A model generated the notes under the pieces. That model saw only the letters and a program-made list of their open reading frames with translations. It made no database searches and was not told the DNA's origin. 64,000 bases of DNA from Fulvivirgaceae bacterium JP3-4 (GTDB lineage Bacteria; Bacteroidota; Bacteroidia; Cytophagales; Cyclobacteriaceae). Position 1 is the first letter of the stretch; every line of letters starts with the position of its first letter. Location of the stretch: contig JARKND010000001.1 of the NCBI GenBank assembly GCA_029309925.1, positions 2,294,001-2,358,000 of the forward strand, given 5' to 3'. This document shows, piece by piece, positions 13,651 through 33,132 of the stretch. The translations under genes and the position numbers were made by a program.

Positions 13651-13811
13651 CCGATGCCTATGCGGAAGTGTCTGTGACTGTTTAGCTAAAGAAAAACATG
13701 AGTAGCCATTGAGTTGCACGTATACATGTTGCGGCACACCTTTAATCAATCGGCTGCTGCCTTTGCATCTGAAACCGGCCGTCAGTACCTTTGGTGGTCA
13801 CCCCCCACTCT

Positions 13812-14234: not shown

Positions 14235-14248
14235 TAGCTTCTCTCCTG

Positions 14249-14698: not shown

Positions 14699-14838
14699 CG
14701 GGCCGCAAAAATACAATTTGTTAACTGCAATTCATGCGGTCGGCCGAAACGATCATCGGCTTGATTCGACTTCCTCACAAAAAAACACCTGCTTCATCAC
14801 AAAAAGTTGGAGATCTCGAAACATTTCACCACTATTGT

Positions 14839-14862
14839 ACCGTATTAGTTAAGTAATACAGT
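14839..14862. promoter_or_regulatory. Palindromic operator for YtrA-type GntR regulator
   Basis: Palindrome with arms GTATTA (14842-14847) and TAATAC (14854-14859), extending outward to AC/GT with 10 of 12 base pairs matched across 24 bp. It lies 12 bp before the ABC ATPase start. An operon carrying its own YtrA-type GntR gene usually has such a GTATTA...TAATAC operator at its promoter, giving autoregulation. A wider TGTACC/GGTACA pair (14836-14841, 14869-14874) frames it. Confidence 0.65.
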
Positions 14863-14874
14863 AAATCAGGTACA

Positions 14875-15705
14875 ATGGTAATAATCAAGGACTTAAAGTT
14901 TACGTACTCGCGCAGGCAAGATCCTTTGTTTCAGGATCTTAGCTGTGAATTACCGTCCGGCAGCATAGTCGGTCTGCTGGGAAAGAATGGCGCTGGCAAG
15001 ACAAGTCTGCTCAAACTAATGATCGGTTTGCTGCGTCCGACCGAGGGTTTTGTACGCATTATGGGCCACGAGCCAGCGAAGCGCGAACCCGCCCTCCTAC
15101 AGGACGTTTACTTTCTGCCTGAAGAATTTCATCAGCCGGGAGTTTCAATCCGGAGTTATGTCAGAGCCAACGCGGGATTTTATCCTCGTTTCGACCAGGA
15201 GCTGCTCAACCGACTCGTTGCGGACTTCGAATTACCCGACAATAAAAAGCTCAATCAGTTATCGTACGGCCAGAAGAAAAAATTTCTGATCTCTTTCGCG
15301 CTTTCAACGAAATGCAGACTCCTCGTCCTCGATGAGCCAACCAACGGTCTGGATATACCTTCAAAAGCAATTTTCAGAAGAGTGATGGCGGGGTCGCTGG
15401 ATGAAGACCAACTCGTGATTATTTCAACTCATCAGGTGCGGGATGTTGAGAACCTCATCGACCGCGTGCTGATGCTCGAGAAAGGCAAGTTCATCATGCA
15501 GAAAAATCTCTATGAGATCTCGTCAAAACTTCACTTTGCCACAACGTCTTCACCCGAGGGCGAGAACATCCTGTATCACGAGATGGTGCCGGGTGGTTAT
15601 AAAGTGATCACTTCGCAGGCAGACGGAAGTTCCTCTGTCGACATTGAATTGTTGTTCAATGCGATTTCCAATGGTACCGAAAAAATGAAGGAATATGTCA
15701 AATAA
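14875..15705 (+). CDS. ABC transporter ATP-binding protein (GntR-linked)
   Basis: First gene of a YtrA-like operon: ABC ATPase of 276 residues. Walker A GKNGAGKTS, signature region LSYGQKKKF, Walker B LLVLDEPTNGLDIP and H-loop STHQVRD are all present. The short coupling region and the C-terminal tail resemble the YtrB/BcrA type. It begins 12 bp after the palindromic operator and overlaps the following permease gene by 11 bp. It probably powers the 259-residue permease; substrate unknown, though relatives respond to cell-wall-active peptides. Confidence 0.93.
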   Translation: MVIIKDLKFTYSRRQDPLFQDLSCELPSGSIVGLLGKNGAGKTSLLKLMIGLLRPTEGFVRIMGHEPAKREPALLQDVYFLPEEFHQPGVSIRSYVRANAGFYPRFDQELLNRLVADFELPDNKKLNQLSYGQKKKFLISFALSTKCRLLVLDEPTNGLDIPSKAIFRRVMAGSLDEDQLVIISTHQVRDVENLIDRVLMLEKGKFIMQKNLYEISSKLHFATTSSPEGENILYHEMVPGGYKVITSQADGSSSVDIELLFNAISNGTEKMKEYVK

Positions 15706-16474
15706 TATATTCAGCTGGCAGCGCTTTCAATTGTTGTTCAGGCAGCATTTCATACACAACGCGCAACTATTAATGTTGTCGACTGGGGCGTATGTAGGGG
15801 TCATCTTCATTGTGCTGTCACTTGTTCAGGTAGCGAATGATCTCCAGCCGCATAATCTCGAGAACTTCCAGGGTTTCCTGATAGGGTTCGTCACTGTGTT
15901 TGGCATTTTGTATGTCGGTCACTCCTTCCCTGCGTTCCGGTCGAAGGAAAGCACAATCAGCTACCTGATGATCCCTGCGTCTCCGCTGGAAAAATTCCTG
16001 TTTGAGCTTGTGGTGCGGATCGCGCTGGTGCTGCTGACGTTGCCGATTCTGTACTGGCTGGTGTTCCACGTCCAGGGTTACTTCTTCAATGTCTTTACAG
16101 ACTTGCCATTCGTTCCCGTCAACGCGCAATACCTTGTCAGGATCGATGAGAACGTTCCGACTCTTGTCTATTCTCTCACCGCTGGTGGTGTTTTGTTTGC
16201 CCTTTCACTCGCGTTCACCGGATCAGCAATGTTTACAAAGCAGCCCTTAGTAAAATCCCTTTTTGCCGTAGCACTGATTGTGATGTTTTTTGTCGGGTAC
16301 GTGATCCTTGTTGCCGAATATCTTGGTCTCGGCAAATACAATCCACCGGAGGAAATGGTGTTGGTACCGTTAGACGAGACGAAGGCGTTGGCGGCTGTTA
16401 CGTTTGCGCTTTTTGCAGGAACGGTGGTGATGCTATTTGTGGCTTACCAGAAGTTAAAAGAGAGGGAGGTGTAA
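15695..16474 (+). CDS. ABC transporter permease (six-helix membrane protein)
   Basis: Integral membrane protein of 259 residues with about six hydrophobic helices (around residues 28-50, 60-80, 105-125, 155-175, 185-207, 228-252). It overlaps the upstream ATPase gene by 11 bp and is followed after 1 bp by the GntR gene, so it is the membrane partner of that ATPase. No catalytic motif is expected. The family is recognised from context and helix pattern rather than from a strong sequence signature. Confidence 0.85.
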   Translation: MSNNIFSWQRFQLLFRQHFIHNAQLLMLSTGAYVGVIFIVLSLVQVANDLQPHNLENFQGFLIGFVTVFGILYVGHSFPAFRSKESTISYLMIPASPLEKFLFELVVRIALVLLTLPILYWLVFHVQGYFFNVFTDLPFVPVNAQYLVRIDENVPTLVYSLTAGGVLFALSLAFTGSAMFTKQPLVKSLFAVALIVMFFVGYVILVAEYLGLGKYNPPEEMVLVPLDETKALAAVTFALFAGTVVMLFVAYQKLKEREV

Positions 16475-17593: not shown

Positions 17594-18484
17594 ATGAATA
17601 TTGAGATTAAAGGACTCTCCAAGATCTATCCGAATGGCTTTGCAGCGATCAAGAATATCGATCTGCAGATAGGAAGCGGGATGTTTGGGTTGCTTGGCCC
17701 GAACGGAGCAGGGAAATCGAGCTTCATGAGGATACTGGTGACAGTGCAGAAAGCAACTTCGGGAACGATACTCATGGACGGCATGGATATCAACACACAC
17801 CGGCATGAGATAAGAAGGCTGGTCGGATACCTTCCGCAGGACTTCACTTTCTTTTCGAAGCTGAAGACGTGGGAGTTTCTCGACTACGCAGCCCAGCTCG
17901 CAACATCCTTGAAAAGGAAAGAACGTATTGCAAAGGTTGACAGGCTTCTAGATCAGGTGGGCTTGCTGGATGTGCGCGATCGCATGGCGAACAAGCTCTC
18001 GGGTGGGATGAAGCGAAGACTTGGCATTGCCCAGGCGTTGATTGGTGAACCGCGGTTGCTGGTGATCGATGAGCCTACTACCGGCCTCGATCCCGAGGAG
18101 CGTATTCGCTTCCGGAACATTCTCTCAGATCTGAGTCAGAAAGACGTCACGATCATTCTTTCAACCCACATTGTCGGTGATATCAGCAGCACATGCCACA
18201 ACATGGCTATGCTGAACAAAGGTGAAGTGGCGTTCAAAGGTTCGCCTGAAGGGATGATAGACCAGGTACGCGGCCATGTGTGGCAGATCATGCTTGATGA
18301 TGAAGAGTTTGATGCCATAAAAGCAAAGTACCCGGTGGTGTCAACGATCCCTGCTGAAGGAAGATGGGAAGTGCAGCTCATTGCCAATGACAAGCCGCAT
18401 CCCGATGCGAGAGAAGCTAATCCAAACCTGGAGCACGCATATGTATATTTTATGGAAAACGAGTTAGGGGTTTCACTGGTATGA
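17594..18484 (+). CDS. ABC transporter ATP-binding protein
   Basis: 296-residue ABC ATPase, first gene of the large export operon. Walker A GPNGAGKSS, Q-loop in GYLPQDFTF, signature LSGGMKRRL, Walker B LLVIDEPTTGLDP and H-loop STHIVGD are intact; the C-terminal extension ends with NLEHAYVYFME, like its paralogue at 9131. The stop overlaps the permease start (ATGA at 18481), so translation is coupled. It most likely energises the membrane part of the 1111-residue protein and possibly the small permease at 32369. Confidence 0.95.
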   Translation: MNIEIKGLSKIYPNGFAAIKNIDLQIGSGMFGLLGPNGAGKSSFMRILVTVQKATSGTILMDGMDINTHRHEIRRLVGYLPQDFTFFSKLKTWEFLDYAAQLATSLKRKERIAKVDRLLDQVGLLDVRDRMANKLSGGMKRRLGIAQALIGEPRLLVIDEPTTGLDPEERIRFRNILSDLSQKDVTIILSTHIVGDISSTCHNMAMLNKGEVAFKGSPEGMIDQVRGHVWQIMLDDEEFDAIKAKYPVVSTIPAEGRWEVQLIANDKPHPDAREANPNLEHAYVYFMENELGVSLV

Positions 18485-21400
18485 TCTCGATCAAAAACAT
18501 ACTGACGATCTCATCCTACGAAGGAAAAGTGCTGTGGAGAAACTGGTTTTTCCGCATCATCGGCCTCGCTGGTATTGGCTTCCTCACAATTTTCAACCTG
18601 GTAGTTTTTTCAGAACTAGACTCGCCCGACTGGGATTTTCTTGCCAACGGGTCAGTTCTCCCCTACGTTAGCCTGTTGTTTATCAGCATTCCGCAAGCCG
18701 CTGCAGTTATTTTTTTGGCGACCGGATTGATCAAAAAGGACAAGAAGCTTGATACTAATGAAGTGTTTTTCGTGAGGGCGATCACCAACCTTGACTACGT
18801 GCTTGGTAAAGCCCTTGCGCTGTTTAAGCTTTTCTTCTTTCTGAACCTGGTATTGCTTTGCATTCCGCTTATCGTTGGCATCACCAACCCACTGGCTACT
18901 GTAGACCCGGTGGCGTTCCTCAGCTATCTGTTCCTTACCAGTGTTCCGAACATTGTGTTCACTGCGGGTGCAGCCTTTCTTCTCGTGACCGTGATCCGCA
19001 ATCAACCCATCTCGATTGTGTTGTTGATCGGTCTTGCTGGGGTACAACTTATCTATTACTTCGACAAGTTTTCAAATATCCTTGACTTCACGGGCTTCCG
19101 CTTGTCTATGATGCGGTCAGAGATGGCCGGTTTTGTTGATATGGAATTTGCGCTCTTACAACGTTCCTTCTATTTTATTACCGGTATTGGATTTCTGTTC
19201 ATCACTGCATTCCTGCTCGACAGGCTTGCGGGTCACAAAACGGCTCATCGCGCCAGCTTACTCGCAGGTCTTGCTATCCTGGCGATCTCATCCGTGATCA
19301 TGGTGAAGCTGTGGGACATGCGGAAGACGCCTATCGCGTTGCGTCAGCAGATGATCGAAGTGAATGGCAAGTGGGCGGATGTGCCGAATCTCGAAGTGAG
19401 CTCCCATAACATAACACTGGAGTGGCTAGGCAACCAGATCAGCAGCACATCTGAGATGGTGCTTCAAAACAATTCATCTGCACCGCTGGAAACGATTTTC
19501 TTTACATTAAATCCGGGCCTCACAGCAGAAGCTTTGTTCATCAATGGCCAACCTGCCGAGTTCACCAGAGAGCTGCAGATTATTTCCGTCAACAAAAAGA
19601 TCCGCATTGAGCCTGGTGAACGGGTAAATGTCCAGCTAAACTACCACGGCCCTGTGTCAGAAGCTGCCGCGCATCTTGAAGTCGACCAGGAACGTTATGA
19701 AAATATCAACGAGTTCATCATCTTCTCGCTGCTGAAGAAATATGCATTCCTTGAAGAAAACTATCTGCTGCTGACGAAAGATGTGCTGTGGTATCCTGAC
19801 ACTGAAGTAGGCTTCAACAGGAGGTCGGCAGCGAAGGAAAGACAATCGTTCATCGATTTCCGGCTGACAGTAAAGGCGCCCGCGGGCAAAACACCGATTT
19901 CGCAAGGGGCACTGACTGTCAACGATGGGGTCTACACATTCAAGCCAGAGTACCGGTTGCCACAGATTTCACTTGTCATCGGTGATTATCTGAAAAAAGA
20001 GATTGTTGTAGACAGTGTAGCCTATTCGGTATACCACTATCCAAAAAACGATTTCTTCGCGCGGCAACTCGATCAGCTGGCAGATACACTCAGCTACCTG
20101 ATCACCGATGTTGTCAATGAGTATGAAGATGCGCAGCGGCTCTCCTACCCTTTCAAAAGAATGCAGTTTGTTGAAGTTCCCCTTCACTTTACGGCCTACA
20201 ACAAGGTTTACGAAAGTCACCAGGCACACGTGCAACCCGAAACAATTTTCTGGCCGGAAGAAGGTGGCGAGATAGAGCAATTCGATTTCAGAAACCAACT
20301 GCGTGATATGACTAAGCAGGCAGCAAAGTCAAACCAGGTGTTGACCGACAAGCAGAAACAGGCAAATGTTTTCAATGACATGGTGAGAAAAATCTTTACC
20401 AAGCAGATCGGTTCAACTTGGGTCTGGGAAGGTAAGGATATCGACAATCCGGACTATTCAATCTTTCCGAACTACTACGATTTTAATTCAGGTATTGTAA
20501 GTAAAGAGTGGGCATTGCTCAATAGAAGTATTGCGAACTACTTGCGCAAGGATAAGCTTGTTCGCAATGATTATTCAAGAGAAATAAAAGGCATTTCGTT
20601 TACGGAAGAATGCAACGACCTGATGCGCACCTCACCACTCAACCGGATCCTGACAGAAGGTGAGTTCAGCAAAGTGAATAAATCAGTTGCGCTGAAAAGT
20701 CAGTACCTGTTCTCTTACCTCGGTCATATTATAGGTGAAAGCAACTTCAAATCGTTTCTCTACGAATGGGTAAACACACACCAGCATCAGCTTACGCGAT
20801 ACGAAGATTTCCGGAAGGCAATGATGTCGCAGTTCAAAGTTGATATCGATCCGGTTATGCGCAAGGTTTATTCTGAGACGTCACAACCAGCGTTTGAAAT
20901 TCTTGAGGTTCAGAAGTACGAGGTGATGGATGGTGACCGGAAGCGCTACCAGGTGCTGGTGAAGGCTAAAAACTCAGGTGACAGCGATGGTGTACTGGAA
21001 GTAAAATTCAACCACAAAGACCAGGGCAATGATGAAGACGACTGGTATCCAAAAGTAAATGAAGATGCGGCCGAGGAAGCACCAGGAAGACTGGCCGTGA
21101 TCAGACATGGGGAAACAAAGCTCTTTGGCTATGTGCTTGACGAGAAGCCGAATGACATCACCATCAATACCATCATTTCCAGAAATATTCCTTCCGTGAT
21201 CAACATGTCGATGGGCACGATGTCAGCCCGTGAAGGTGGTGTTCTCTTCGATGGAGAGCGCGTTATCGAAAAGGATGATTCATCGAATTCCTATGAGGTG
21301 ATTGTTGACAATGAAGATCCCGGCTTTAGCGACTTCAGCCCGATCAAACCTACGATGCTTAAGGTGTGGCTTGACGGGCTTGACACAGTCCCGCAAAAGT

Positions 21401-21816
21401 ATCATGGCTATTGGTCACGCTCCTATGCGAAGTGGCTCGCAACAACCGGCTCTGATTTCTACGGAAGGGTGATCCGCTCAGCACACTTCACACGCTCAGG
21501 CGAGGGCGAAAAAACGGCAACGTGGACGCCTGAATTGCGCGAGGAAGGCTTCTATGATGTTTACGTTTACATGCGCGGAAAAAATCAAAATGAGTATGTT
21601 GGAAACAATGGCGACAGCAGACAGTTCGAATACCACTACATCATTAAAAACCAGGACGGGACGGATCACATCAGCTATAACATTACGAACGCAGAGCCAG
21701 GATGGAATTATCTCGGGTCGTACTACTTCAACAAGACTGGAGGAAGTGTTTCGCTGACGGACGAATGTGACCTTCGGACCGTTTATGCAGATGCAGTGAA
21801 ATGGGTGAAGCAATGA
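18481..21816 (+). CDS. ABC-2 permease fused to M1-like domain without zinc motif and golvesin-like C-terminus
   Basis: 1111-residue fusion. Residues ~1-275 hold one ABC-2-type membrane half of about six helices. From ~290 a long extracytoplasmic region follows with the beta-sandwich and peptidase-like order of M1 proteins (HNITLEWLGNQISSTSEMVL, DVLWYPDTEVGFNRR), but I find no HExxH anywhere, so it should be catalytically dead. The last ~120 residues (SDFYGRVIRSAHFTRSGEGE, TATWTPELREEGFYDVYVYM, WNYLGSYYFNKTGG, VYADAVKWV) match the golvesin C-terminal-like fold, a carbohydrate-binding-like beta sandwich. It therefore looks like a permease with a large binding or gating head in the periplasm. 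It is coupled to the ATPase by a 4-bp overlap and followed within 50 bp by a TolC gene. Confidence 0.85.
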   Translation: MISIKNILTISSYEGKVLWRNWFFRIIGLAGIGFLTIFNLVVFSELDSPDWDFLANGSVLPYVSLLFISIPQAAAVIFLATGLIKKDKKLDTNEVFFVRAITNLDYVLGKALALFKLFFFLNLVLLCIPLIVGITNPLATVDPVAFLSYLFLTSVPNIVFTAGAAFLLVTVIRNQPISIVLLIGLAGVQLIYYFDKFSNILDFTGFRLSMMRSEMAGFVDMEFALLQRSFYFITGIGFLFITAFLLDRLAGHKTAHRASLLAGLAILAISSVIMVKLWDMRKTPIALRQQMIEVNGKWADVPNLEVSSHNITLEWLGNQISSTSEMVLQNNSSAPLETIFFTLNPGLTAEALFINGQPAEFTRELQIISVNKKIRIEPGERVNVQLNYHGPVSEAAAHLEVDQERYENINEFIIFSLLKKYAFLEENYLLLTKDVLWYPDTEVGFNRRSAAKERQSFIDFRLTVKAPAGKTPISQGALTVNDGVYTFKPEYRLPQISLVIGDYLKKEIVVDSVAYSVYHYPKNDFFARQLDQLADTLSYLITDVVNEYEDAQRLSYPFKRMQFVEVPLHFTAYNKVYESHQAHVQPETIFWPEEGGEIEQFDFRNQLRDMTKQAAKSNQVLTDKQKQANVFNDMVRKIFTKQIGSTWVWEGKDIDNPDYSIFPNYYDFNSGIVSKEWALLNRSIANYLRKDKLVRNDYSREIKGISFTEECNDLMRTSPLNRILTEGEFSKVNKSVALKSQYLFSYLGHIIGESNFKSFLYEWVNTHQHQLTRYEDFRKAMMSQFKVDIDPVMRKVYSETSQPAFEILEVQKYEVMDGDRKRYQVLVKAKNSGDSDGVLEVKFNHKDQGNDEDDWYPKVNEDAAEEAPGRLAVIRHGETKLFGYVLDEKPNDITINTIISRNIPSVINMSMGTMSAREGGVLFDGERVIEKDDSSNSYEVIVDNEDPGFSDFSPIKPTMLKVWLDGLDTVPQKYHGYWSRSYAKWLATTGSDFYGRVIRSAHFTRSGEGEKTATWTPELREEGFYDVYVYMRGKNQNEYVGNNGDSRQFEYHYIIKNQDGTDHISYNITNAEPGWNYLGSYYFNKTGGSVSLTDECDLRTVYADAVKWVKQ

Positions 21817-21861
21817 GTATTGAAAAAAGATTTTATAAAGACCACTAGAAATTTAAATAGT

Positions 21862-23373
21862 ATGAGTTCTTATCAACCGAACAACCTGACGAGATCAACA
21901 CCGAAGTCTGTGCGGAACATCGCCATCATGCTCCTGCTCATTGGCGGGTTCATGGTGATCTCCTCGATCGCCAGGGCGCAGCGCACGCTGAAACTTCAGG
22001 ACGCGATCGCCATTGCGCAAGCCAGCAGCCGGAATATCAAAAAGTCGATGTTGAACCTTTACGGAAGTCAGCGAAGCCTCGATGCGCAACGGGCTGCATT
22101 GAAATCGCGGTTTGCCTTAGACATCACACCGTTCGACTACAACCGCGATCGCAGCTTCAACGATCTCTTTTCGCGATGGAATACAAACGAGATGTACAAC
22201 TCATTCGCCAATCTGTCGGTAAGCCAGCCGATCGTAGCCACTGATGGAAGGATCTCGCTGATCAATCGCCTCGGCTACAGAGACAACTATTCGGAATTCC
22301 AGGACATCAGGACAAAAACATACAGCAACAACTTATACCTTCAGCTCGACCAGCCCATCTTTACTTACAACAGAACAAAACTTCAGTTGAAGGAACTCGA
22401 GCTCAATCTTGAGAATGCATCGATCAGCAACGCGTTGCAGCTGCTCAGCCTCGAGCAAAGTGTAACCCAAAGCTTTTACACTTTTTATCAGCGTCAGAAC
22501 AGCCTGCAGATCTCGAAGGATGAATATGAAAATCAAAAGATAAGCTACGAGATCACGAAGAACAAAGTAGATGCAGACCTGCTGGCCCAGGAAGAACTCT
22601 ACCAGGCAGAACTCAACCTGGCAACGTCCAAATCGACAATGGAAAACAATGAGGTGCTGCTCCAAAATGCAGCCGATGATTTTAAGCTGTTGCTCGGTGT
22701 TGACCTTACGGAAGAGTTTGCTGTCGAGGTAGACATTGACTTCGTAACACGTGAGACTGACCTCAACCAGGCCCTGCAACACGCACTGGCAAACCGGATG
22801 GAGTTGAGAGAACGTGCCATCGATATCGAGCGATCACAGTTTGAGCTGATCCGCACCAAGGCGATGAACGAATTCAAAGGTGCTGTGTCCCTGTCACTCG
22901 GGATCTTTGGCGACAACGAACGTGCCCCCGACATCTATGAAGTGCCGGCTGTGAATCCGCGTGTAGCCGTATCGTTTAACATTCCAATCTTCGACTGGGG
23001 AGAAAAAAGAGCGCGCATGGAAGCAGCTGCCGCTTCCCGCGAAATTAAGATGATCGACATGGAAGTTGAAAAGAACAACATCATGATCAACATCCGCAAA
23101 GTCTACAGGAATCTGCAGAATCTCGAAAACCAGATTCTGATCGCGGAGCAAAACGTGAAAAATGCAACGCTGACCTATGACATCAACCTCGAGCGCTACA
23201 AGAACGGGGATCTCACGAGCATTGACCTGAACAGGTTTCAAAGCCAGCTTTCCGAGAAGAAAAGCATCTATGCCGATGCGTTGATCAATTATAAAATTGA
23301 GCTGCTAAACCTCAAGATACTTTCACTCTACGACTTTGAGGCACAACAGCCCGTCATCGCTCCAAGAAACTAA
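21862..23373 (+). CDS. TolC family outer membrane efflux protein
   Basis: Outer-membrane channel of the TolC/OEP family, about 503 residues. Signal region SVRNIAIMLLLIGGFMVISS, then TLKLQDAIAIAQASSRNIKK, the family start. Two long helical repeats follow (ELNLATSKSTMENNEVLLQN and DINLERYKNGDLTSIDLNRF are typical hairpin sequences). ATG 21862 gives a reasonable signal peptide; a TTG at 21820, 3 bp after the previous stop, would add 14 residues and cannot be excluded. It stands between the ABC-type genes and the adaptor and RND genes, so it probably serves both. Confidence 0.93.
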   Translation: MSSYQPNNLTRSTPKSVRNIAIMLLLIGGFMVISSIARAQRTLKLQDAIAIAQASSRNIKKSMLNLYGSQRSLDAQRAALKSRFALDITPFDYNRDRSFNDLFSRWNTNEMYNSFANLSVSQPIVATDGRISLINRLGYRDNYSEFQDIRTKTYSNNLYLQLDQPIFTYNRTKLQLKELELNLENASISNALQLLSLEQSVTQSFYTFYQRQNSLQISKDEYENQKISYEITKNKVDADLLAQEELYQAELNLATSKSTMENNEVLLQNAADDFKLLLGVDLTEEFAVEVDIDFVTRETDLNQALQHALANRMELRERAIDIERSQFELIRTKAMNEFKGAVSLSLGIFGDNERAPDIYEVPAVNPRVAVSFNIPIFDWGEKRARMEAAAASREIKMIDMEVEKNNIMINIRKVYRNLQNLENQILIAEQNVKNATLTYDINLERYKNGDLTSIDLNRFQSQLSEKKSIYADALINYKIELLNLKILSLYDFEAQQPVIAPRN

Positions 23374-23404
23374 CACAAAAAAGAACCTACTAAAAGTATT
23401 GATA

Positions 23405-24466
23405 ATGAAAAAGCTGACTAAACGAATCCTTCCGCTGCTGATGTTGACGATCATCATCGCGTCCTGTAACCCGGAAGACTCAAGCATAAAAACCGAAATA
23501 AAGATTCCGGTTTCTGTTGTGAGCATCAAGCCACAAAGCATTTCGCGTTTCATTGAAACCACAGGTACGGTCTACTCCTTTAAGGAAGGTGTCATGAAAT
23601 CCGAGATCAGTGGCGTCTACAGGCTGCAGCGAAATCCTGCAACGGGTAGGCCATTCGCACTTGGGGATGCTGTAAAAGCCGGACAGGTATTGATCAGGAT
23701 CGAAGACAGGGAATTTGAAAACAACCTCCAGCTTGAAGGCAAAAAGCTGAACCTCGATCTATCGGATGACAATCTCAAGAAGAAAAAGTCGCTGTATGAC
23801 AAAGGTGGCGTAACACAAACAGAGTTGAAAAATTCATCGATCGACTATGTGAACGCCAAGTATGCGTATGAGAACGCCCAGATCCAAAGCGCCAAGATGA
23901 GCGTAATCGCTCCGTTTGATGGCGTGATCGTAGAGCTCCCCTATCACACTGAAGGCGTCCGGGTTGATCAGGGCCAGCCGCTCTTAAAAATAATGCAGTT
24001 CGATCAGCTGTTGATGGACGTAAAACTTCCGGAGAAGCATCTGCCGGAAGTAACGCTGAACCAAACCGTGCAGATCGCAAACTACAATGTGGCGAAAGAC
24101 ACGATCTTTGGAAAGATCAGTCAGATCTCTCCGGTAATCAACGCGGACACCAGAACGTTTCAAAGTGTTTTGCAAATCGATAATAAAAAAGGCGTGCTGC
24201 GTCCCGGAATGTTTATCAAAGCATTTATACTCTCTGAAAAGCGAGATGGTACGATCGTCATTCCAAAAGAGACTGTCATATCCCGCCAGGATGGAAAAGT
24301 AGTGTTCACTGTTGAGAACGGCATTGCTACTGAAAAGAAAATAACGACAGGTCTCGAGAGTCTTGATGTGATCGAAGTTACCAATGGACTGAAAGTGAAT
24401 GACCGGCTTGTTGTCTCCGGCTTTGAAACACTCAGGAACAAATCGAAAGTCAGCGTTATTCAGTAA
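23405..24466 (+). CDS. Efflux RND periplasmic adaptor subunit, lipoprotein
   Basis: Membrane-fusion (HlyD/AcrA-type) adaptor of 353 residues linking the inner-membrane pump to TolC. ATG 23405 gives a lipoprotein signal (LMLTIIIASC, lipobox Cys ~21); the frame open to 23336 overlaps TolC and lacks sense. Lipoyl-like halves flank a short helical hairpin (GDAVKAGQVLIRIEDREFEN ... SVIAPFDGVIVELPYHTEGV), then the beta-barrel (LRPGMFIKAFI) and the membrane-proximal domain (VIPKETVISRQDGKVVF). The hairpin is short, as in adaptors of HAE/HME-like pumps. 20 bp before the RND gene. Confidence 0.95.
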   Translation: MKKLTKRILPLLMLTIIIASCNPEDSSIKTEIKIPVSVVSIKPQSISRFIETTGTVYSFKEGVMKSEISGVYRLQRNPATGRPFALGDAVKAGQVLIRIEDREFENNLQLEGKKLNLDLSDDNLKKKKSLYDKGGVTQTELKNSSIDYVNAKYAYENAQIQSAKMSVIAPFDGVIVELPYHTEGVRVDQGQPLLKIMQFDQLLMDVKLPEKHLPEVTLNQTVQIANYNVAKDTIFGKISQISPVINADTRTFQSVLQIDNKKGVLRPGMFIKAFILSEKRDGTIVIPKETVISRQDGKVVFTVENGIATEKKITTGLESLDVIEVTNGLKVNDRLVVSGFETLRNKSKVSVIQ

Positions 24467-24485: not shown

Positions 24486-27400
24486 GTGAAAAAGATTGTC
24501 TCGCTGGCCGTATCCTACCCCGTATCGATCCTGATGATGGTGTTGGCGGTGATCCTGCTGGGTTTTATTTCGTTCGGGAAGCTCGGCATCGAGCTGGTTC
24601 CGGAATTGAAGAACCCAACGTTGTTTGTCGAACTCAAGGTGGGGATCAAACCTCCGTCAGAAGTTGAGAAGCAATTCATCGAATCGATCGAGTCGATTGC
24701 CATCCGGCAGAATGGTGCCGTTGAAGTCAGTTCTATCAGCCAGACAGGCTACGGACGTGTGACCGTTCAGTATGACTGGAGCAAAGACATGGATGAAGCT
24801 TTCCTTGACCTTCAGAAATCCCTCTCTTCTTTTTCACTTAATGATGAGATCGATGAGTTTGCAATTTCTCAGTTCGATCCGAATGCTGCACCGATCATGA
24901 TCCTTGGGATCTACAACCCGGCATCAAATGATACGGAAGCGTTGAGACATATCGCAGAGAACAATTTCAGAAACGAGTTCATCAAACTGCCTGGTATCGC
25001 GGAAGTGCGTTTGGCTGGCGAACAGGAGAAAGAGGTCGTTCTGGAAACCGATCCCGACTTGCTGGCATCGGTGGGCCTGACAGTCAATGACCTCGTGACA
25101 AAAATCCAAAATTACAACCGTAGCGTTTCTGGCGGGTTCATTGAAGAGCTGGGAAGAAAGTATGTGATCAAGGGTCTGGGCATCATTGAAAAGCCCGAGG
25201 ACCTCGGTGATCTGGTAGTAGGTTATTCAACAAAGAAAAATGCGGTTGCTAATCCGGAAGGCCCCGCTGTGTCGTCAACTGCTGCGTCTGTTAGTAATAT
25301 TTCTTCCTCAGATCAGGTCCCTGTGCTGCTGCGCGAAGTCGCCACCATCAAAATTCTCGACAAAGAGGCAAGCAGTATCGTGAGGGTTAATCAGCAGCGA
25401 AGCATTGGGATGTCAATATACAAGGAGACGAATTATAACACTGTAAATGCCGTCAATGAGCTGATGGGTTCACTCGAACGCCTGAAGACAACAGTCCCCG
25501 GATACGAATTTGTTATCATTCAAAACCAGGGAAGATTTATCCAGGGCGCCATTGACGAAGTAAAAGAGTCCGGGCTATACGGTATTCTCTTCGCGGTGTT
25601 TGTGCTGTTTCTGTTTTTGAGGAGAATCGGCTCAACGCTCATCATCAGCATCGTGATTCCGATTTCAATCATTGCCACATTCAACCTGATGTACTTCAAT
25701 GGGCTTACGCTGAACGTGATGACACTTGGAGGATTGGCGCTGAGTGCGGGAATGCTTGTCGACATTGCGATTGTCGTAGTGGAGAACATTTTCCGTAAGC
25801 GCGAAGAAGGCTTGAGTGTTGTAGATGCTGCCATTGAAGGGACAAGCGAAGTAAGCGGTGCGATCACAGCCTCAACGCTGACCTGTATTGTTGTGTTTCT
25901 GCCGATCGTCTATCTGCAGGGTCCGTCTGGCGAACTTTTTAAAGATCAGGCGTGGACCGTTGCGTTCTCACAGTTTGCATCACTCTTCGTTGCGATCCTT
26001 GTCATTCCCATGCTCTTCGCACAATTCTTCCGCAAGGACAAAGTATTTGCAAGAGAACGAAAAGTGTTTTCCGATGAGAAGCATTTCAGATTCAAACGGT
26101 ATCGGACGGTGCTTGAAAAAGTCCTGAATCACAAAACTGCATGGATCGTCACGTCTTTCGTCATGATCCTCGGCACAGCGCTATTGCTTCCGGTCATCGG
26201 CAGCGAGTACATGCCGCAGTCCGACACACGTGCAATTTCAGTTGATATCACCCTGATGAATGGAACTCCGCTTGCGAGAACATCATCAACGGTCGGCCAG
26301 ATTGAAAATCAACTTCAGCAATTATTCGAAGGACAGCTTGATAAAATATATTCGCACATCGGGCCTCAGGAAAGTCAGTCTGGAATTAAAAATGAAAATG
26401 TATACAACGAGAATAAAGCAACGGTCAAGCTGATTTTCCGCGAAGACATTGAACTCGATATTGCGCCAGTAACTGCGAAATTGTCCGCATACTTCGAGGC
26501 ACTTCCAGGTATCGAAGCTACATTTTCAAATGATGAAAGTGCGCTATACGCAGTGATGGGAGATGATGAGATGCCGCTGGTGGTGGAAGTCAGCGGATCG
26601 GACTTCCAAAAGCTGAAGCCCCTCTCCGATTCGATCATGGCTTTGATGGCCGCCAACAAGGACGTTTACGATCCTGTGTCGAACCTTGAGGAAGGCGTCC
26701 CTCAGATTCATGTAGATGTCGATAAGTACCGGGCCGGGATCTTCAATTTGTCGATCGATGATATTATTGTTCAGATCAAAGATCAGCTCGAAGGAAAAAA
26801 TGCAGGAACCATCGAGCGCGGTGGCGAAATGCAGGACATAAAAATCAAGGTACCGGAAGTCACCCTTGCAGGTCTTCAGAACCTGAAAATAAAAAGCGGA
26901 CAACGCGAATTTCCGCTTAGTGAAATCGCGCGAACAGAAGTTGAGTACGCGAGCAACTCGATCCACAGGAGAAATCAAACACGCACGGTGTCTATCGGTG
27001 CACGCGTCAATCCTGACGAGCCATACGACAAAGTAGTGAAGTCCATTCAAAATTCGCTTTCGAAATTATCCGTGCCTCCGCAATACAAGATCAAAGTTGC
27101 CGGCCAGGAGATCAGGCGTCAGGAGTCAGTGGAGAACCTGACCTTTGCGCTGATCCTGTCGATCGTGCTGGTGTACATGGTTCTGGCGTCACAGTTCGAA
27201 TCACTCCTCCATCCGTTCACCATTTTATTAACGATACCATTCGCGGTTGTCGGAGCGATCCTCGCCTTCTTTGTGTTGGGAATGCCATTGAACATGATGG
27301 GCTATATCGGAATCATTTTGCTGGGCGGTATCGCTGTGAACAACTCGATCATGATTGTCGACTGCATCAATCAGAACAAAGACAACGGAATGCCCCTTCG

Positions 27401-27668
27401 CGAGGCGATTCTTGACGCGGCTGAGCGAAGGCTCCGGCCGATCATGATGACCACGATGACAACCATCCTCGGACTGCTTCCGTTGACCTTAGGTTTTGGC
27501 GAGAGTGCAGCATTGCGCGCCCCAATCGCGATCGCAGTGATCGGTGGAATGGTGACATCAACGCTGCTCACACTTATTATTATCCCGTGCTATTATGAAA
27601 CGATCGAAAATATCGTTAGCCGAATCAGTCGCAGGAAGGAAGTGAAAATTGAAGTTTCCCATGGCTAA
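24486..27668 (+). CDS. Efflux RND transporter permease subunit
   Basis: Proton-driven inner-membrane pump of the RND superfamily (AcrB-like layout), 1060 residues. It starts at GTG 24486 (MKKIVSLAVSYPVSILMMVL), has the first large periplasmic loop, the TM4 proton-relay block SAGMLVDIAIVVVENIF with Asp426 (only one Asp, not the AcrB DD pair) and the second half FALILSIVLVYMVLASQFES and GIAVNNSIMIVD. A low-complexity Ala/Ser insertion lies near residues 255-280. It overlaps the next RND gene by 8 bp; two RND permeases in tandem suggest a heteromeric trimer, as in MdtBC, but that is inference. Confidence 0.95.
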   Translation: MKKIVSLAVSYPVSILMMVLAVILLGFISFGKLGIELVPELKNPTLFVELKVGIKPPSEVEKQFIESIESIAIRQNGAVEVSSISQTGYGRVTVQYDWSKDMDEAFLDLQKSLSSFSLNDEIDEFAISQFDPNAAPIMILGIYNPASNDTEALRHIAENNFRNEFIKLPGIAEVRLAGEQEKEVVLETDPDLLASVGLTVNDLVTKIQNYNRSVSGGFIEELGRKYVIKGLGIIEKPEDLGDLVVGYSTKKNAVANPEGPAVSSTAASVSNISSSDQVPVLLREVATIKILDKEASSIVRVNQQRSIGMSIYKETNYNTVNAVNELMGSLERLKTTVPGYEFVIIQNQGRFIQGAIDEVKESGLYGILFAVFVLFLFLRRIGSTLIISIVIPISIIATFNLMYFNGLTLNVMTLGGLALSAGMLVDIAIVVVENIFRKREEGLSVVDAAIEGTSEVSGAITASTLTCIVVFLPIVYLQGPSGELFKDQAWTVAFSQFASLFVAILVIPMLFAQFFRKDKVFARERKVFSDEKHFRFKRYRTVLEKVLNHKTAWIVTSFVMILGTALLLPVIGSEYMPQSDTRAISVDITLMNGTPLARTSSTVGQIENQLQQLFEGQLDKIYSHIGPQESQSGIKNENVYNENKATVKLIFREDIELDIAPVTAKLSAYFEALPGIEATFSNDESALYAVMGDDEMPLVVEVSGSDFQKLKPLSDSIMALMAANKDVYDPVSNLEEGVPQIHVDVDKYRAGIFNLSIDDIIVQIKDQLEGKNAGTIERGGEMQDIKIKVPEVTLAGLQNLKIKSGQREFPLSEIARTEVEYASNSIHRRNQTRTVSIGARVNPDEPYDKVVKSIQNSLSKLSVPPQYKIKVAGQEIRRQESVENLTFALILSIVLVYMVLASQFESLLHPFTILLTIPFAVVGAILAFFVLGMPLNMMGYIGIILLGGIAVNNSIMIVDCINQNKDNGMPLREAILDAAERRLRPIMMTTMTTILGLLPLTLGFGESAALRAPIAIAVIGGMVTSTLLTLIIIPCYYETIENIVSRISRRKEVKIEVSHG

Positions 27669-30600
27669 TAACAGTCTGCTAAAAACGATCATCCGAAGGA
27701 AAGTCCTCGTCTCGATGCTGTTCATCGGCTTTACGGTGATGGGCTACATCTCCTACACGAAACTTCCGGTTGAACTTTTCCCCAATGTCGAGCTGCCGGT
27801 GCTCATCGTGCATGTGCAATCGCCTACCGATGTGGACCCGAAGTACATGGAACGCCAGGCGATCGTTCCGCTCGAGAGCGCGATCAGTACGCTTGAAGGT
27901 GTGGCCGAAATTACAGCGAATGCCGACAGCAAACAGGGTTTGATCTTCATTTCATTTCAGCAGGGCGTCAATATCAAATACGCTTACCTGAAGCTTGAGC
28001 AGAAGGTCGGTGCTATCAAGTCAAGCCTTACGCCAGAGTTTTTTGTGAACATCATCAAGATCGACACAGAAGATTTTTCCAATTCATTCATGAGCTTGCA
28101 GGTTCTGGGCAGCGGTGGCGTTGACCGCGTGCGGAATATTGCAGACCAGTACATTGCCGACCGTCTCAGCGATGTTGACGGTGTCGGAGGCGTGGAAGTT
28201 TTTGGTGGCCGGCAGAAGACCGTGGAAATCATCATGAACGATGCGATCTGCGAAGCCAACGGCATCACTCCGAATACAATCAGCAGCGTCCTCGCGCGCA
28301 ACTCTAACAAAAGCGCGTTTGCCGGACAGGTTGAAATGAACGGACAAAAAGTTTTTGTCAATGTCACGGCAGAGCTTAAAGACATCAAGAACATTCAAAG
28401 CCTCGTAGTTTCAGAGAAAGGCCCTCTCCTGTTAAGCGATGTTGCCGATGTTTTCTTCGGTGTTAAAGAACAGACTTCGCTCAGCCGTGTCAATGGTAAA
28501 GAGGCCGTCTCCATCCAGATCTCTAAAGATCCTCAGGCTAACCTGATTGCCTTGTCGGAAAAAACGCTTGCCGCCATTGACGCGATCAACAAAGATCTCG
28601 AGCCGATGGATGTGAAAATTATCGTTGAGAACAACCAGGCTGAGATGATGTCGCGGAATATTGATCAGATCAAAGAGCTCGCAATTACTGGCGGTCTCCT
28701 CGCGATTTTCGTGCTGTGGGTGTTTCTCAGGAGAATGAAATTCATTCTGAGCATTGCCCTTTCAATTCCCATTTCAGTTTTTGCTGCCTTCAATTTCTTT
28801 TATGCTTATGACATCTCCATCAACAGTCTTACACTGATCGGAATGGCGCTTGCTATTGGTATGCTCGTAGACAACAGCGTTGTAGTGGTTGAAAACATCT
28901 ACCGGCATGTGGTCAACAAGCAAGGCCGCGAAGAGGCGATTGTAAGGGGAACGAATGAAGTAATGCGCTCGGTGATCGCTGCCACGCTCACAACGATAAC
29001 TGTCTTCCTGCCATTTATCTTTTCCACCAATTTCCTTGTAACACTTATTGGAACGCACATCGGGGTGTCAATCATCTCTACGATGCTTGTCTCTCTGGTT
29101 GTCGCTTTGGTATTGATCCCGATGCTGGCTGACTCCGCCATTAAGAAGGACGATGAGGAGCAGGCACCGCTGATCAAAAATGCATCCATCCGTCAGCGCA
29201 TTATCCAGGTGTATGTAGTACTCCTGAAGTCGTGTTTCAGAAGGCCAATGTTTACGGTGGTAGGTGGACTCGTTCTCTTTTTTGTGTCGATCGGTGTCAG
29301 CCTCATTGTAAGTCTTGCCAACCCGACAGAAGTTGAAACCACGGAAATGAATCTTTTCGTGACGATGCCACAAGGCAGCACGCTGGAATCAACAGACCTG
29401 AAGGTAAGGAAGATCGAAGAAAAGGTGATGGAAATTCCTGTTGTTGATAAGGTGATCAGCCAGGTGTCAGAAGTCGAGGGTGTGATCACGTTAAAGCTCG
29501 TTGAAAATTTTAACGATCTCGACACCATTTCAATTTCCGATGTACGCAACCGGCTCTCAGCTATCTCCAATGATTTTGACGATGTCGATATCTCCCTTGA
29601 AAAACCACCGAGTCAGAATGCCGGTGGTGGTGGCGGTGCAGGAAGCTCTGCCCAGGATGACTTCGAGCGGATGCTCGGCATCGGGACACCGTCTGAGCGG
29701 ATTGTGATCAAAGGCCAGGACTTTGAACTGATGCAAACCATCGCACACGACATCAATACGATGGTCAGCGGGCTTCAGTCTGTTCAGCAGAGTTCAGTCA
29801 ATCTGAGCCCGGAGCGCCCGGAGGCTCACCTCGTGTTCGATCAAAAGCGTATGAGTGAAAACCATGTCACTTTGCAGAATGTTGCCACCGCGCTCAACGA
29901 CTTTCAGCCCTCCTTTACGTCTGGCTCGAAGTTCATCAGTGGTGGTGAAGAGTATGAGATGACCATTCGCACACGAAATCAGACCACCAACAGAGCAAAG
30001 GAAATGCGCGACCTCCGCGAGATGAAAGTGAGCAGCACAACAGGCGCGACACACTCTCTTTCTCATATCGGCACCGTCAACTATTCATCCGGTGAAAGCA
30101 CGATCACACGCATGAACCAGGAAAAGCGAATTCAGATCAAATACAATTTCATTGATGAGGTATTAAATTCAAATGCATTGCTGGAGGCGTCCCGCGTTGA
30201 AATCGATCAGGTCGTTGCTGGTGTCAATATTCCGACCGGAATTGTCGTAGAAGTCATCCACGATGAAGGCCTGTATGACGATTTCTATTTCTTTATTTTC
30301 GCGGCCATTGTGATCATCTTCATGATTCTCGCTGCAGTATTCGAATCGCTGTACCTGCCGATCGTGATCATGTTCTCTATTCCGTTAGCAGGCATCGGAG
30401 CGCTGCTGAGCCTTACGTTCACCGGCAACTCTATCCTAAGCACAAACACGCTGATCGGATTTCTCATCCTGTTGGGTGTCGTAGTCAACAACGGAATCAT
30501 CCTGATCGACTATTCGCGCATTCTCAGACGAGAAGGTTATTCGAAATACCGCGCGCTGATCATGAGCGGAATTTCACGTCTGCGACCGATCCTCATTACC

Positions 30601-32397
30601 TCGATCACAACCATCATTGCCATGTTGCCGCTGGCGCTTGGAGAAGCAGAGTATGTGATCAGCATCGGTCAGCCGTTTGCAGTTACGGTGATGGGTGGCC
30701 TTGCTTTCGCGACAATACTCACGCTCTTCTACATTCCGACCATGAGCGCTGGACTGGAAAGTGTTCTGGATTGGTTCAGGGAACTGAAGCCCGTGATTAA
30801 AGCAGCTCAGATCATCGCGCTGATTGCTGCCGGAATATTTATTTCCCTGAAAATTGAAGGACTCATCTGGCAGATGATGGCATACATCGGAGCCGTGATT
30901 CTGATCCCTGGAGCAACCCATTTCATCATGTCGTCACTGCGCCAGGCAAATGCAAAGATGGTCGCACCGGGTGAAGCAATGCATATCGAGATTCAGAACC
31001 TGACCAAAGTCTACGGCAGAGACAAGCGCTGGATCCGGGAATGGAAAGGAAACCGGAACCTCTTTATGCTCAGAGGCGAAGAACCGGTCACAAAACGCGT
31101 GGTCTTGCAGGACCTCATCTGGCATAGCGCGCTGATCGGCTTCCTCATCTATTTCATTTATTTCCATCTCGACAAAGCCTTCTGGCAGCTCGTCTTTATG
31201 ATGGTGCTGCACGCGCTGACACTCTCGATCCTCAGCCGTGTTACAAAATTACTTCCCCGAAGGGAAAGAATGATGCGCATAACCAACACGTTGCTGTATT
31301 GGGGATTTCCGCTGCTCAGCTCGATCTATCTCTACAATGATGTTCAGATCAAAGCATTTGCAGTCATCCTCATCTTCCTCTGGTTCACCGGTCTGTTCCT
31401 TTCACGCGTTTCAAAATCCCTGAAAGAAAATCCCGTTGACGTCAATGAGATCAGGGGCAGGTTTACAAAGATTCGAAGGATCTACTACAAGCTGTTGCTT
31501 TCCATCCCCTATGTAAAACCGAAGAAAGCTGAGTTCAAAGCACTAAAGGGTGCGAACCTGACGATCGAGCAAGGCATGTTCGGGTTGCTCGGACCGAATG
31601 GCGCAGGCAAAACGACCCTGATGCGCATCCTCTGCGGCATACTCGATCAGAGCTATGGAAAGATCTGGATCAACGGCCATGACACCACGCTGCGGAGAGA
31701 AGAACTTCAGGGACTCATCGGCTATCTCCCGCAGGCGTTCGGCACTTATGAGAACATGACGCCTTATGAATTCCTCGATTACCAGGCAATTCTGAGAAAG
31801 ATTGTCAATAAAGAAGAACGCGAAGCGAGAGTCCAGTATGTTCTGAAAGCCGTGCACATGGACGAGCATCAGCATAAAAAGATCGGCTCTTTCTCAGGTG
31901 GCATGAAACAACGCATCGGCATCGCGCAGATCCTGCTGCACCTTCCTAAAATATTAGTGGTTGACGAGCCTACTGCGGGACTTGACCCGCTCGAGCGGAT
32001 TCGTTTCCGCAATCTTCTGGTCGAGCTGAGCCGCGAACGGATTGTCGTGTTCTCCACCCACATCATTGAAGACATCGCCAGCAGCTGCAATAAGCTCGCT
32101 GTACTGATCTCCGGCAACATCGAATACATCGGAAGTCCAACCACCATGGCAGAACTTGCGCATGAAAAAGTGTGGGAGTTCCACCTGACACCCGAAGAAT
32201 TTGAGACCGAAAAAGAAAATTATCTCATCGTTCACCACATGCGTGAGGGTGCGCTGATCCGTGTGAAGTGCCTCTCCGAAGAACGACCGCGACTGGATGC
32301 AACACAGGTGCGTGCAAACCTGGAAGATGCATACTTATGGTTGATGAAAAGTAAATCAAAAAAGAAACATGAAGAGCTATCTGCTGTTGCTGTATAG
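27661..32397 (+). CDS. RND permease fused to a split ABC ATPase domain
   Basis: 1578-residue fusion, numbered from ATG 27661 (an in-frame TTG at 27649 is less likely). Residues 1-~1045 are a full RND permease: TM1 start, TM4 block IGMLVDNSVVVVENIY with Asp404, a Gly-rich loop near 660, and second half MILAAVFESLYLPIVIMF. Two more hydrophobic helices follow (~1050-1095). At 1107 the first strand of an ABC nucleotide-binding domain appears (MHIEIQNLTKVYG), but Walker A (GPNGAGKTT) comes only at 1311. Between them lie ~170 residues with about four hydrophobic segments (WHSALIGFLIYFIYF, LVFMMVLHALTLSIL, LLYWGFPLLSSIYLY, FAVILIFLWFTGLFL). The rest is complete: FSGGMKQRI at ~1412, VVDEPTAGLDP with Asp1435, STHIIED with His1467, ending in the extra domain (NLEDAYLWLM). 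One uninterrupted frame; no frameshift needed. It overlaps the next permease gene by 29 bp, the likely ABC-2 partner. Confidence 0.92.
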   Translation: MANNSLLKTIIRRKVLVSMLFIGFTVMGYISYTKLPVELFPNVELPVLIVHVQSPTDVDPKYMERQAIVPLESAISTLEGVAEITANADSKQGLIFISFQQGVNIKYAYLKLEQKVGAIKSSLTPEFFVNIIKIDTEDFSNSFMSLQVLGSGGVDRVRNIADQYIADRLSDVDGVGGVEVFGGRQKTVEIIMNDAICEANGITPNTISSVLARNSNKSAFAGQVEMNGQKVFVNVTAELKDIKNIQSLVVSEKGPLLLSDVADVFFGVKEQTSLSRVNGKEAVSIQISKDPQANLIALSEKTLAAIDAINKDLEPMDVKIIVENNQAEMMSRNIDQIKELAITGGLLAIFVLWVFLRRMKFILSIALSIPISVFAAFNFFYAYDISINSLTLIGMALAIGMLVDNSVVVVENIYRHVVNKQGREEAIVRGTNEVMRSVIAATLTTITVFLPFIFSTNFLVTLIGTHIGVSIISTMLVSLVVALVLIPMLADSAIKKDDEEQAPLIKNASIRQRIIQVYVVLLKSCFRRPMFTVVGGLVLFFVSIGVSLIVSLANPTEVETTEMNLFVTMPQGSTLESTDLKVRKIEEKVMEIPVVDKVISQVSEVEGVITLKLVENFNDLDTISISDVRNRLSAISNDFDDVDISLEKPPSQNAGGGGGAGSSAQDDFERMLGIGTPSERIVIKGQDFELMQTIAHDINTMVSGLQSVQQSSVNLSPERPEAHLVFDQKRMSENHVTLQNVATALNDFQPSFTSGSKFISGGEEYEMTIRTRNQTTNRAKEMRDLREMKVSSTTGATHSLSHIGTVNYSSGESTITRMNQEKRIQIKYNFIDEVLNSNALLEASRVEIDQVVAGVNIPTGIVVEVIHDEGLYDDFYFFIFAAIVIIFMILAAVFESLYLPIVIMFSIPLAGIGALLSLTFTGNSILSTNTLIGFLILLGVVVNNGIILIDYSRILRREGYSKYRALIMSGISRLRPILITSITTIIAMLPLALGEAEYVISIGQPFAVTVMGGLAFATILTLFYIPTMSAGLESVLDWFRELKPVIKAAQIIALIAAGIFISLKIEGLIWQMMAYIGAVILIPGATHFIMSSLRQANAKMVAPGEAMHIEIQNLTKVYGRDKRWIREWKGNRNLFMLRGEEPVTKRVVLQDLIWHSALIGFLIYFIYFHLDKAFWQLVFMMVLHALTLSILSRVTKLLPRRERMMRITNTLLYWGFPLLSSIYLYNDVQIKAFAVILIFLWFTGLFLSRVSKSLKENPVDVNEIRGRFTKIRRIYYKLLLSIPYVKPKKAEFKALKGANLTIEQGMFGLLGPNGAGKTTLMRILCGILDQSYGKIWINGHDTTLRREELQGLIGYLPQAFGTYENMTPYEFLDYQAILRKIVNKEEREARVQYVLKAVHMDEHQHKKIGSFSGGMKQRIGIAQILLHLPKILVVDEPTAGLDPLERIRFRNLLVELSRERIVVFSTHIIEDIASSCNKLAVLISGNIEYIGSPTTMAELAHEKVWEFHLTPEEFETEKENYLIVHHMREGALIRVKCLSEERPRLDATQVRANLEDAYLWLMKSKSKKKHEELSAVAV

Positions 32398-33070
32398 GCT
32401 GACGATCTACAACGTCAAAGTTATTTTTGGAAACAAGTTCGTATACTTTGTTGTCGCAGCCTTTTTGTTTTTTGCATTCATCATCCTGCTGACGATATTC
32501 GATGATGCTGAATTCGATGAGGCTGTGATCTACGGCTTCCTGGTTTTTCCCGGCCTGCTGCTCATTTTCTACCCGATCGCGTACGGCATCCAGAATGACG
32601 ATGATTCAAAAATGCTCGAGACCATCTTTGGAATTCCAAATTATCGCTACAAAGTCTGGCTCGTGCGTTTTGTCCTGACGATCGGTATCGCCACAGTCAT
32701 TTTGTTCGTGCTCGGCAACATCGCAAACCTTACACTCTATCAGTTCAGCATCGTGCCCATGATCAGCCAGGTCCTCTTCCCCATCGCCTTCCTGTCGTCA
32801 CTCGGTTTTATGCTCTCAACACTGATCAAGAACGGCAACGGTACCGCTATTGTGCTGGTTATCATTTCGTTTATATTTTTCCTTTTTGCAGAGCCGCTCG
32901 AATACAGTGTGTACAACATTTTCCTGAATCCATTCTCAGAACCTACCAAGATGAGCGAGTTTATCTGGCTCACAATCGTGTATAAAAACCGGATGTACCT
33001 GATCATCCTGAGTATTCTTTGTCTCTTATACGGCATGTTCAATCTGCAATTCAGGGAGAAGTTTGTCTAA
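32369..33070 (+). CDS. ABC-2 type permease, last gene of the export operon
   Basis: Membrane protein of 233 residues with about six hydrophobic helices (FVYFVVAAFLFFAFIILLTI, AVIYGFLVFPGLLLIFYPIA, VLTIGIATVILFVLGNIANL, VLFPIAFLSSLGFMLSTLI, AIVLVIISFIFFLFAE, MYLIILSILCLLYGMF), the ABC-2 exporter pattern. The motif PIAYGIQNDDDSKMLETIFGI resembles ABC-2 proteins near the first coupling loop. It overlaps the RND-ABC fusion gene by 29 bp, so it probably pairs with that ATPase domain. It is short compared with typical ABC-2 permeases (~250-380), perhaps because the fusion's inserted membrane helices supply the other half; this is speculation. Confidence 0.85.
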   Translation: MKSYLLLLYRLTIYNVKVIFGNKFVYFVVAAFLFFAFIILLTIFDDAEFDEAVIYGFLVFPGLLLIFYPIAYGIQNDDDSKMLETIFGIPNYRYKVWLVRFVLTIGIATVILFVLGNIANLTLYQFSIVPMISQVLFPIAFLSSLGFMLSTLIKNGNGTAIVLVIISFIFFLFAEPLEYSVYNIFLNPFSEPTKMSEFIWLTIVYKNRMYLIILSILCLLYGMFNLQFREKFV

Positions 33071-33084
33071 CCCTGCCGGTGTTA

Positions 33085-33132
33085 CATTGGCACATTAACC
33101 CATTGGCACATTAACCCATTGGCACATTAACC
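33085..33132. repeat. Perfect 16-bp tandem repeat, three copies
   Basis: The 16-mer CATTGGCACATTAACC is repeated three times without error directly after the permease gene stop. The same unit, in varied form, recurs in the intergenic run at 35403-35474. It matches no coding or terminator structure. Confidence 0.9.

Follow-up and report, generated by a model that had tools for sequence, protein, structure and literature searches.

Exporters of the resistance-nodulation-division (RND) and ATP-binding cassette (ABC) kinds are two classic classes distinguished by their energy source. Can both be built into one polypeptide, and if so, what might such a protein do? This question is raised by a gene in a 64,000-nucleotide stretch of the genome of Fulvivirgaceae bacterium JP3-4 (contig JARKND010000001.1, positions 2,294,001 to 2,358,000; the whole stretch is hereafter called the window). 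Our analysis confirmed that the gene encodes a single polypeptide, in which a full RND permease (RND2) is followed by an ABC ATPase that is itself split by a membrane insert. The plus-strand frame translates into 1578 residues with zero internal stops, and Pfam assigned ACR_tran to residues 7-1028 (E 5.9e-162) and ABC_tran to residues 1295-1439 (E 5.5e-29). A first-pass annotation, made from the letters alone, had described the continuous frame and proposed this domain search, and it had also placed the ABC motifs correctly: the Walker A motif GPNGAGKTT begins at residue 1311, the signature motif FSGGM is found close to 1412, Walker B is Asp1435-Glu1436 and the H-loop His is His1467. In addition, residue 1107 begins the first ABC strand, MHIEIQNLTKVYG, and two hydrophobic segments detected by hydropathy (1051-1069 and 1072-1090), which are new with respect to that annotation, sit between the RND part and this strand.

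The fusion gene and its relatives

The trivial explanation, which the first-pass annotation itself had raised, is a sequencing or assembly error that joined two genes. The same joined frame was found in 28 distinct full-length proteins (the window protein and 27 others), all single-frame, from different assemblies and some from single-contig genomes, which for practical purposes excludes a joining error; no point in favour of an artefact was found. The Walker A, signature, Walker B and H-loop motifs are intact in all 28 proteins, which represent several families and extend into a second class of the phylum. Cultivated carriers of the fusion include Chryseotalea sanaruensis (L039), Marivirga sericea (L034) and Fulvivirga lutimaris (L043). 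By these comparisons the fusion is a genuine, conserved gene of some Cytophagales and relatives.

The proteins came from several searches. With residues 1030-1290 as query, 22 of 148 genomes from one family (that of JP3-4, itself included) gave a match, or 21 after removal, before counting, of G114 (L030), a false match that is FtsH by the look of its sequence. Seventeen of the 21 matches lie in frames of 1572-1600 residues, and the other four (1514, 1483, 1222 and 649 residues) lie on contigs of 3.9-5.3 kb. A search for related loci in named genomes, partly the same ones, yielded 17 loci, 16 of them with the fusion (15 whole); L044, which begins inside the fusion gene at a contig end, is counted among the 16, and L047 is a plain ABC gene without fusion. 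Samples of the order (291 genomes), the class (395 genomes) and the phylum (395 genomes) added one (G310), four (G514, G606, G717 and G720) and two (G877 and G1083) genomes, respectively, counts that may be too low as no more than 6 to 8 candidates per genome were scored. Two weak matches, G291/L066 and G534/L067, proved false and were likewise dropped before counting. A tblastn search of plasmids with strand 1 plus the insert gave no match.

The age of the fusion was approached through its RND part. Among 59 relatives (JP3-4 included), with no more than 13 candidates scored per genome, eight matched the RND part strongly (E up to 1e-130), and all eight are fused. Frames of 1013-1451 residues encode the remaining RND proteins listed for five genomes; these are at most 32% and nearly all at most 29% identical to the RND2 part. 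No unfused RND2 orthologue was therefore seen in the strict search of 59 relatives or in the RND listings of the five genomes; absences in this search, and in those of the order, class and phylum, carry little weight because few candidates were scored per genome. A quick tree of 64 rows grouped the 28 RND2 sequences in a single clade (SH-aLRT 100) and likewise united the 27 sequences of RND1, the unfused RND permease encoded directly upstream; the other rows are nine RND proteins of the JP3-4 genome only, and long branches blur the joint placing of the two clades. Because RND2 forms one clade and no unfused orthologue appeared in the sample, the fusion looks old and of single origin. In the pair L032-L039, dN/dS was lowest in the nucleotide-binding domain (NBD), at 0.010. 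It was 0.037 in the strand-1 block, 0.044 in the C-terminal part and 0.045 in the RND part, and it rose to 0.119 in the two extra helices and 0.132 in the insert. The NBD is thus the most constrained region in this pair, the only clearly unsaturated one; in the other five of the six, most regions were at or near saturation.

An ABC domain divided by a membrane insert

The first-pass annotation had allowed that the segment at 1107 might lie outside the ABC fold. We scanned the window protein with a strand-1 profile based on six standalone ABC ATPases, a set that includes three mutual orthologues; the profile scored 20.4 bits at residue 1108 and 9.4 at the runner-up site, and the top score in 300 shuffles of the protein was 15.4 bits. 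The strand-1 site was the top profile position in 16 of 16 close members (window included), with a close runner-up in L042 (20.5 vs 22.4). In an unforced MAFFT alignment, the first strand of three standalone ATPases of the window and of that of L047 fell at the 1107 segment, followed by a gap of about 175 residues, and the A-loop Tyr is kept in 28 of 28 fusion proteins. An AlphaFold2 model, computed from a MAFFT alignment to which diverse ATPases of the window were added, had a mean pLDDT of 76.9 and a pTM of 0.62, with pLDDT mostly 80-94 in the NBD and 88 in the strand-1 block; it has strands at 1108-1118 and 1292-1303, and in this model strand 1 probably pairs with the second ABC strand (1292-1303). 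Foldseek matched the model to ABC ATPases, with 4yer_A as the best (E 5.6e-21), in a table that is silent on whether strand 1 lies within the aligned stretch. An earlier job with 17 close rows was poor (pLDDT 52.0, pTM 0.30) and was excluded as evidence on the fold. Since profile scan, unforced alignment and model concur, the 1107 segment is part of the ABC domain, and a position outside the fold is ruled out. An internal start at Met1107 was also considered and rejected, as diverged members do not keep the Met.

The domain is not a standard uninterrupted NBD: about 175 residues separate Tyr1118 from the second strand, in line with the membrane insertion that the first-pass annotation had seen before Walker A. 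AlphaFold2 predicted four helices of 25-29 residues in the insert (about 1145-1169, 1173-1197, 1199-1227 and 1231-1256), with 10-residue pLDDT means of 60-78. The distance from the Tyr to Walker A is 188-199 residues in 27 of 28 fusion proteins and 229 in the remaining one, encoded at L062:1662-6563. RND permeases have 12 helices; adding the two extra segments and the four helices of the insert, all even numbers, would place both ABC pieces in the cytoplasm. The loop charges, counted within limits set by hand, mostly agree, as three of the four loops predicted to be cytoplasmic are rich in Lys/Arg (12, 5 and 11) and the three predicted outside have one Lys/Arg each. The fusion shows that an ABC ATPase domain can carry a membrane insert and yet retain every catalytic motif.

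Operon context and possible mode of action

The fusion gene is part of a seven-gene operon (Table 1). The order permease, TolC, adaptor, RND1, fusion and TMD233, a 233-residue membrane protein, was found in 25 of 28 loci (window not counted), another class of the phylum included; the other three (L035, L041 and L044) are cut by contig ends, and their order agrees as far as it is present, an RND1 listed inside L044 being a cross-match of that locus's own RND2. TMD233, which the first-pass annotation had not brought into its account, starts 29 bases before the end of the fusion gene in the window and is the next gene after the fusion in 28 of 28 loci, in some of which as much as about 0.5 kb separates the two. 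Its homologues were found in four of four genomes with the fusion vs none of three tested without it. A standalone ABC ATPase heads the operon in all four fetched loci that extend beyond the permease start (L062, L065, L068 and L087).

Table 1. Features of the fusion gene and of its operon in the window.
Feature	Coordinates	Strand	Basis or remark
Standalone ABC ATPase, operon head	17594..18484	+	about 42% identical to the fused ATPase
1111-residue permease with degenerate M1-peptidase-like region (under Pfam cut-off) and Golvesin_C	18481..21816	+	operon-conserved
TolC-like outer membrane factor	21820..23373	+	OEP, E 7.1e-35
Membrane fusion (periplasmic adaptor) protein	23336..24466	+	HlyD_D23 and RND_mfp, both over cut-offs
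RND1, a second, unfused RND permease; 8-base overlap with the fusion gene	24486..27668	+	ACR_tran, E 4.1e-211
RND2::ABC fusion gene	27661..32397	+	single open frame, 1578 codons; Pfam ACR_tran and ABC_tran
RND permease part, residues 1-1030	27661..30750	+	ACR_tran 7-1028; MdtB 9lyq_B is the top solved relative by sequence
Two additional membrane segments, residues 1051-1090	30811..30930	+	hydropathy peaks; also helical in the first, weak model
First ABC strand with A-loop Tyr1118, residues 1107-1118	30979..31014	+	profile scan, unforced alignment, model
Membrane insert within the ABC domain, residues 1119-1289, four predicted helices	31015..31527	+	hydropathy, AlphaFold2
Remaining ABC ATPase and C-terminal extension	31528..32394	+	Pfam, motifs, model pLDDT mostly 80-94, Foldseek
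TMD233, 233 residues, six hydrophobic segments, candidate ABC-2 membrane partner	32369..33070	+	hydropathy, position

We tentatively propose, a little short of an even chance, that an ABC module is tethered to an RND-adaptor-TolC exporter and that the two transporters work in series. The fusion would be one subunit of an envelope exporter made by the seven-gene operon (two RND proteins, adaptor, TolC and two ABC modules). Its ATPase may pair with the six-helix TMD233 and use ATP to move a substrate from the cytoplasm or the inner leaflet; the RND part, together with RND1, the adaptor and TolC, would then take the substrate over and expel it. The fusion would hold both transporters together at a fixed ratio, with the insert anchoring the ATPase beneath the pump; strand 1 would be preceded by two helices and followed by four. 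In MdtBC the two RND proteins stand in a 2:1 ratio. RND1 and RND2 may likewise form a trimer of 1:2, which would therefore contain exactly two ABC domains, the number for one ABC dimer. RND heterotrimers such as MdtBC are known (PMC8277102). The intact ABC motifs, the operon order, the co-occurrence of TMD233, the constraint on the NBD and the charges of the loops all favour a series arrangement. A conserved protein of both kinds makes the coupling of export across the inner and outer membranes directly testable within a single polypeptide.

Several observations weigh against this reading. Pfam matched ABC2_membrane_3 in only two of 14 TMD233 rows (best E 0.0045), one of the 14 being in fact a different permease of the window, and the window row had no match at E up to 1. 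No kinship between the insert and TMD233 was detected, so the idea that the insert is a TMD233 relative was dropped. The fourth predicted cytoplasmic loop (1031-1043, after the RND part) has 2 Lys/Arg vs 3 Asp/Glu. In addition, hydropathy of the insert gave three peaks above threshold, not four, the third helix being aromatic and weaker; the four or so hydrophobic segments of the first-pass annotation are thus recovered as helices in the AlphaFold2 model, and hydropathy accounts for three of them.

The main alternative concerns the energy source. The first-pass annotation had suggested that proton-motive force and ATP drive one molecule together. We transferred the relay positions of AcrB by alignment (numbering from PMC4359379 and general knowledge of the protein). 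At D407, D408, K940, R971 and T978, all 28 RND2 sequences have Asp, Asn, Asn, Arg and Thr, which is not an AcrB-type relay. RND1 retains D407, R971 and T978 in 27 of 27 sequences; its K940 position is Asn in all 27, and its D408 position is Asn in 22 and Ile in five. Because the D408 and K940 positions are changed in all RND2 and RND1 proteins compared, the proton engine is altered and not plainly intact. In AcrB, D408N or K940A alone abolishes proton translocation and efflux (PMC4359379), and a second paper agrees as regards activity (PMC5546932). The dual-drive idea is thus only partly supported: its ATP half agrees with the intact ABC motifs, and its proton half is called into question by the relay.

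These changes could be seen as the mark of an ATP-driven RND pump, in which the ABC ATPase powers the conformational cycle and replaces part of the proton relay. Such a pump would break the rule that RND pumps use ion gradients alone, and the ABC motifs kept in 28 of 28 proteins speak for it. For comparison we used 32 other RND proteins, nine from the JP3-4 genome and the rest chosen in ten genomes by likeness to RND1, hence not a random sample; 22 have Asp-Asp/Lys, one Asp-Asp/Arg, two Asp-Asn/Lys, three Asp-Gly/Leu and one Asp-Glu/Ser. However, the last three (L118, L119 and L120) have Asn at the Lys position, one of them with the exact Asp-Asn/Asn pattern, and all three are unfused. Their genes sit in TolC-adaptor-RND operons by Pfam, and no Walker A frame of at least 120 codons was found near them in the stretches of 19-19.5 kb that were read. 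As the Lys change also occurs in these three unfused pumps, with no ABC gene found close by, the relay does not prove ATP drive; rather, since variant relays exist in unfused RND proteins, the relay comparison tests for the AcrB mechanism and not for family kinship. Other proton chemistry is also conceivable, given that D407, R971 and T978 are retained and that the residue right after the changed Lys is Asp in 18 of 27 RND1 proteins. CusA, for instance, works with one Asp and a Glu. We consider ATP drive of the RND cycle unlikely, and its explicit form, in which two AcrB relay residues have changed in both RND subunits and a membrane-anchored ABC ATPase, acquired by one of them and present twice in each 1:2 heterotrimer, powers the alternating cycle, slightly more so. 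Regardless of the drive, the locus offers a natural case of RND subunits that differ from AcrB at positions essential there and adjoin an ATP motor.

Two further explanations both seem to us rather improbable. The ABC and RND transporters might be independent and merely tethered, which would fix stoichiometry and location without any hand-over of substrate; unfused ABC genes do stand side by side in the window (9131-16474), but every RND2 found by the strict search has an ABC part (8/8 in 59 genomes), and the linker, strand 1 and the NBD all show strong conservation. Alternatively, the ABC domain might act as a non-transporting switch or assembly clamp, by mechanotransmission of the MacB/FtsEX kind. 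The NBD is anchored by an insert of its own, a feature absent from the window's standalone ABC ATPases, and this would suit such a role; however, Pfam matched no MacB or FtsX membrane domain in the fusion or TMD233, and a conserved six-segment protein follows the fusion directly. We therefore retain, tentatively, two transporters in series.

Two of the comparison proteins deserve a note of their own. The unfused RND proteins at L119:8092-11181 and L118:8485-11592 have Ala or Ser at the D407 position and Asn at the K940 position, and possibly have another proton coupling or none.

Known systems and other genes of the window

Among known systems, MdtB/MdtC of E. coli are the closest to the RND side: they too have full-length ACR_tran domains and two adjacent RND genes with an adaptor and TolC, and MdtB (9lyq_B) is the top solved relative of the RND part by sequence. 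In contrast, the MdtB chain ends with its RND part at 1040 residues and the fusion continues into ABC, and the D408 and K940 positions of the fusion differ from those of MdtB/MdtC-type RND proteins. On the ABC side, motifs and fold are shared with standalone ABC-2-type ATPases (gene 17594, T. maritima 4yer and the ATPase chains of NosDFY) and with the ABCA exporters of lipids, whereas the NBD of the fusion is interrupted after strand 1 and hung on an RND permease. Of the solved chains compared by sequence, 4yer scores highest for a single domain (118 bits). ABCA chains stand above it only because the scores of both their domains are summed (for ABCA3, about 90 bits per domain), and an initial impression of ABCA kinship was not borne out domain by domain. 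The best NCBIfam ABC match is GldA, the gliding-motility ATPase (TIGR03522), at 164.1 bits vs a curated cut-off of 402.6, so the protein is not assigned to GldA. The MacB tripartite exporter likewise combines an ATP-driven module with an adaptor and TolC, but the MacB ATPase is N-terminal to its own permease (PMC8277102), and no MacB/FtsX domain was found here, as noted above. Searches of open-licence PMC papers yielded no described RND-ABC fusion, consistent with the first-pass annotation, which knew of none; domain databases may nevertheless contain this architecture.

A different known fusion, the ABC-2 permease-M1 peptidase (TC 3.A.1.145.1; PMC3924187), resembles in layout the 1111-residue permease of the operon and the gene at 10066-13650. 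This resemblance concerns an operon neighbour and not the RND-ABC fusion. The HExxH motif was not found in the 1111-residue permease, whereas the gene at 10066-13650, with a similar layout, retains HEVSH.

Elsewhere in the JP3-4 genome, a single frame at L084:2150-4504 encodes an ABC protein that starts with a TerB domain and continues with ABC_tran and ABC2_membrane, and L083 and L085 have beginnings like that of this protein. Upstream of the operon, the 9131-16474 region holds two further genes for ABC ATPases, with a membrane protein encoded after each, and beside it lie a LytTR response regulator and a histidine kinase (7154-8963). Finally, CATTGGCACATTAACC occurs in three perfect tandem copies at 33085-33132, between TMD233 and a LytTR gene.

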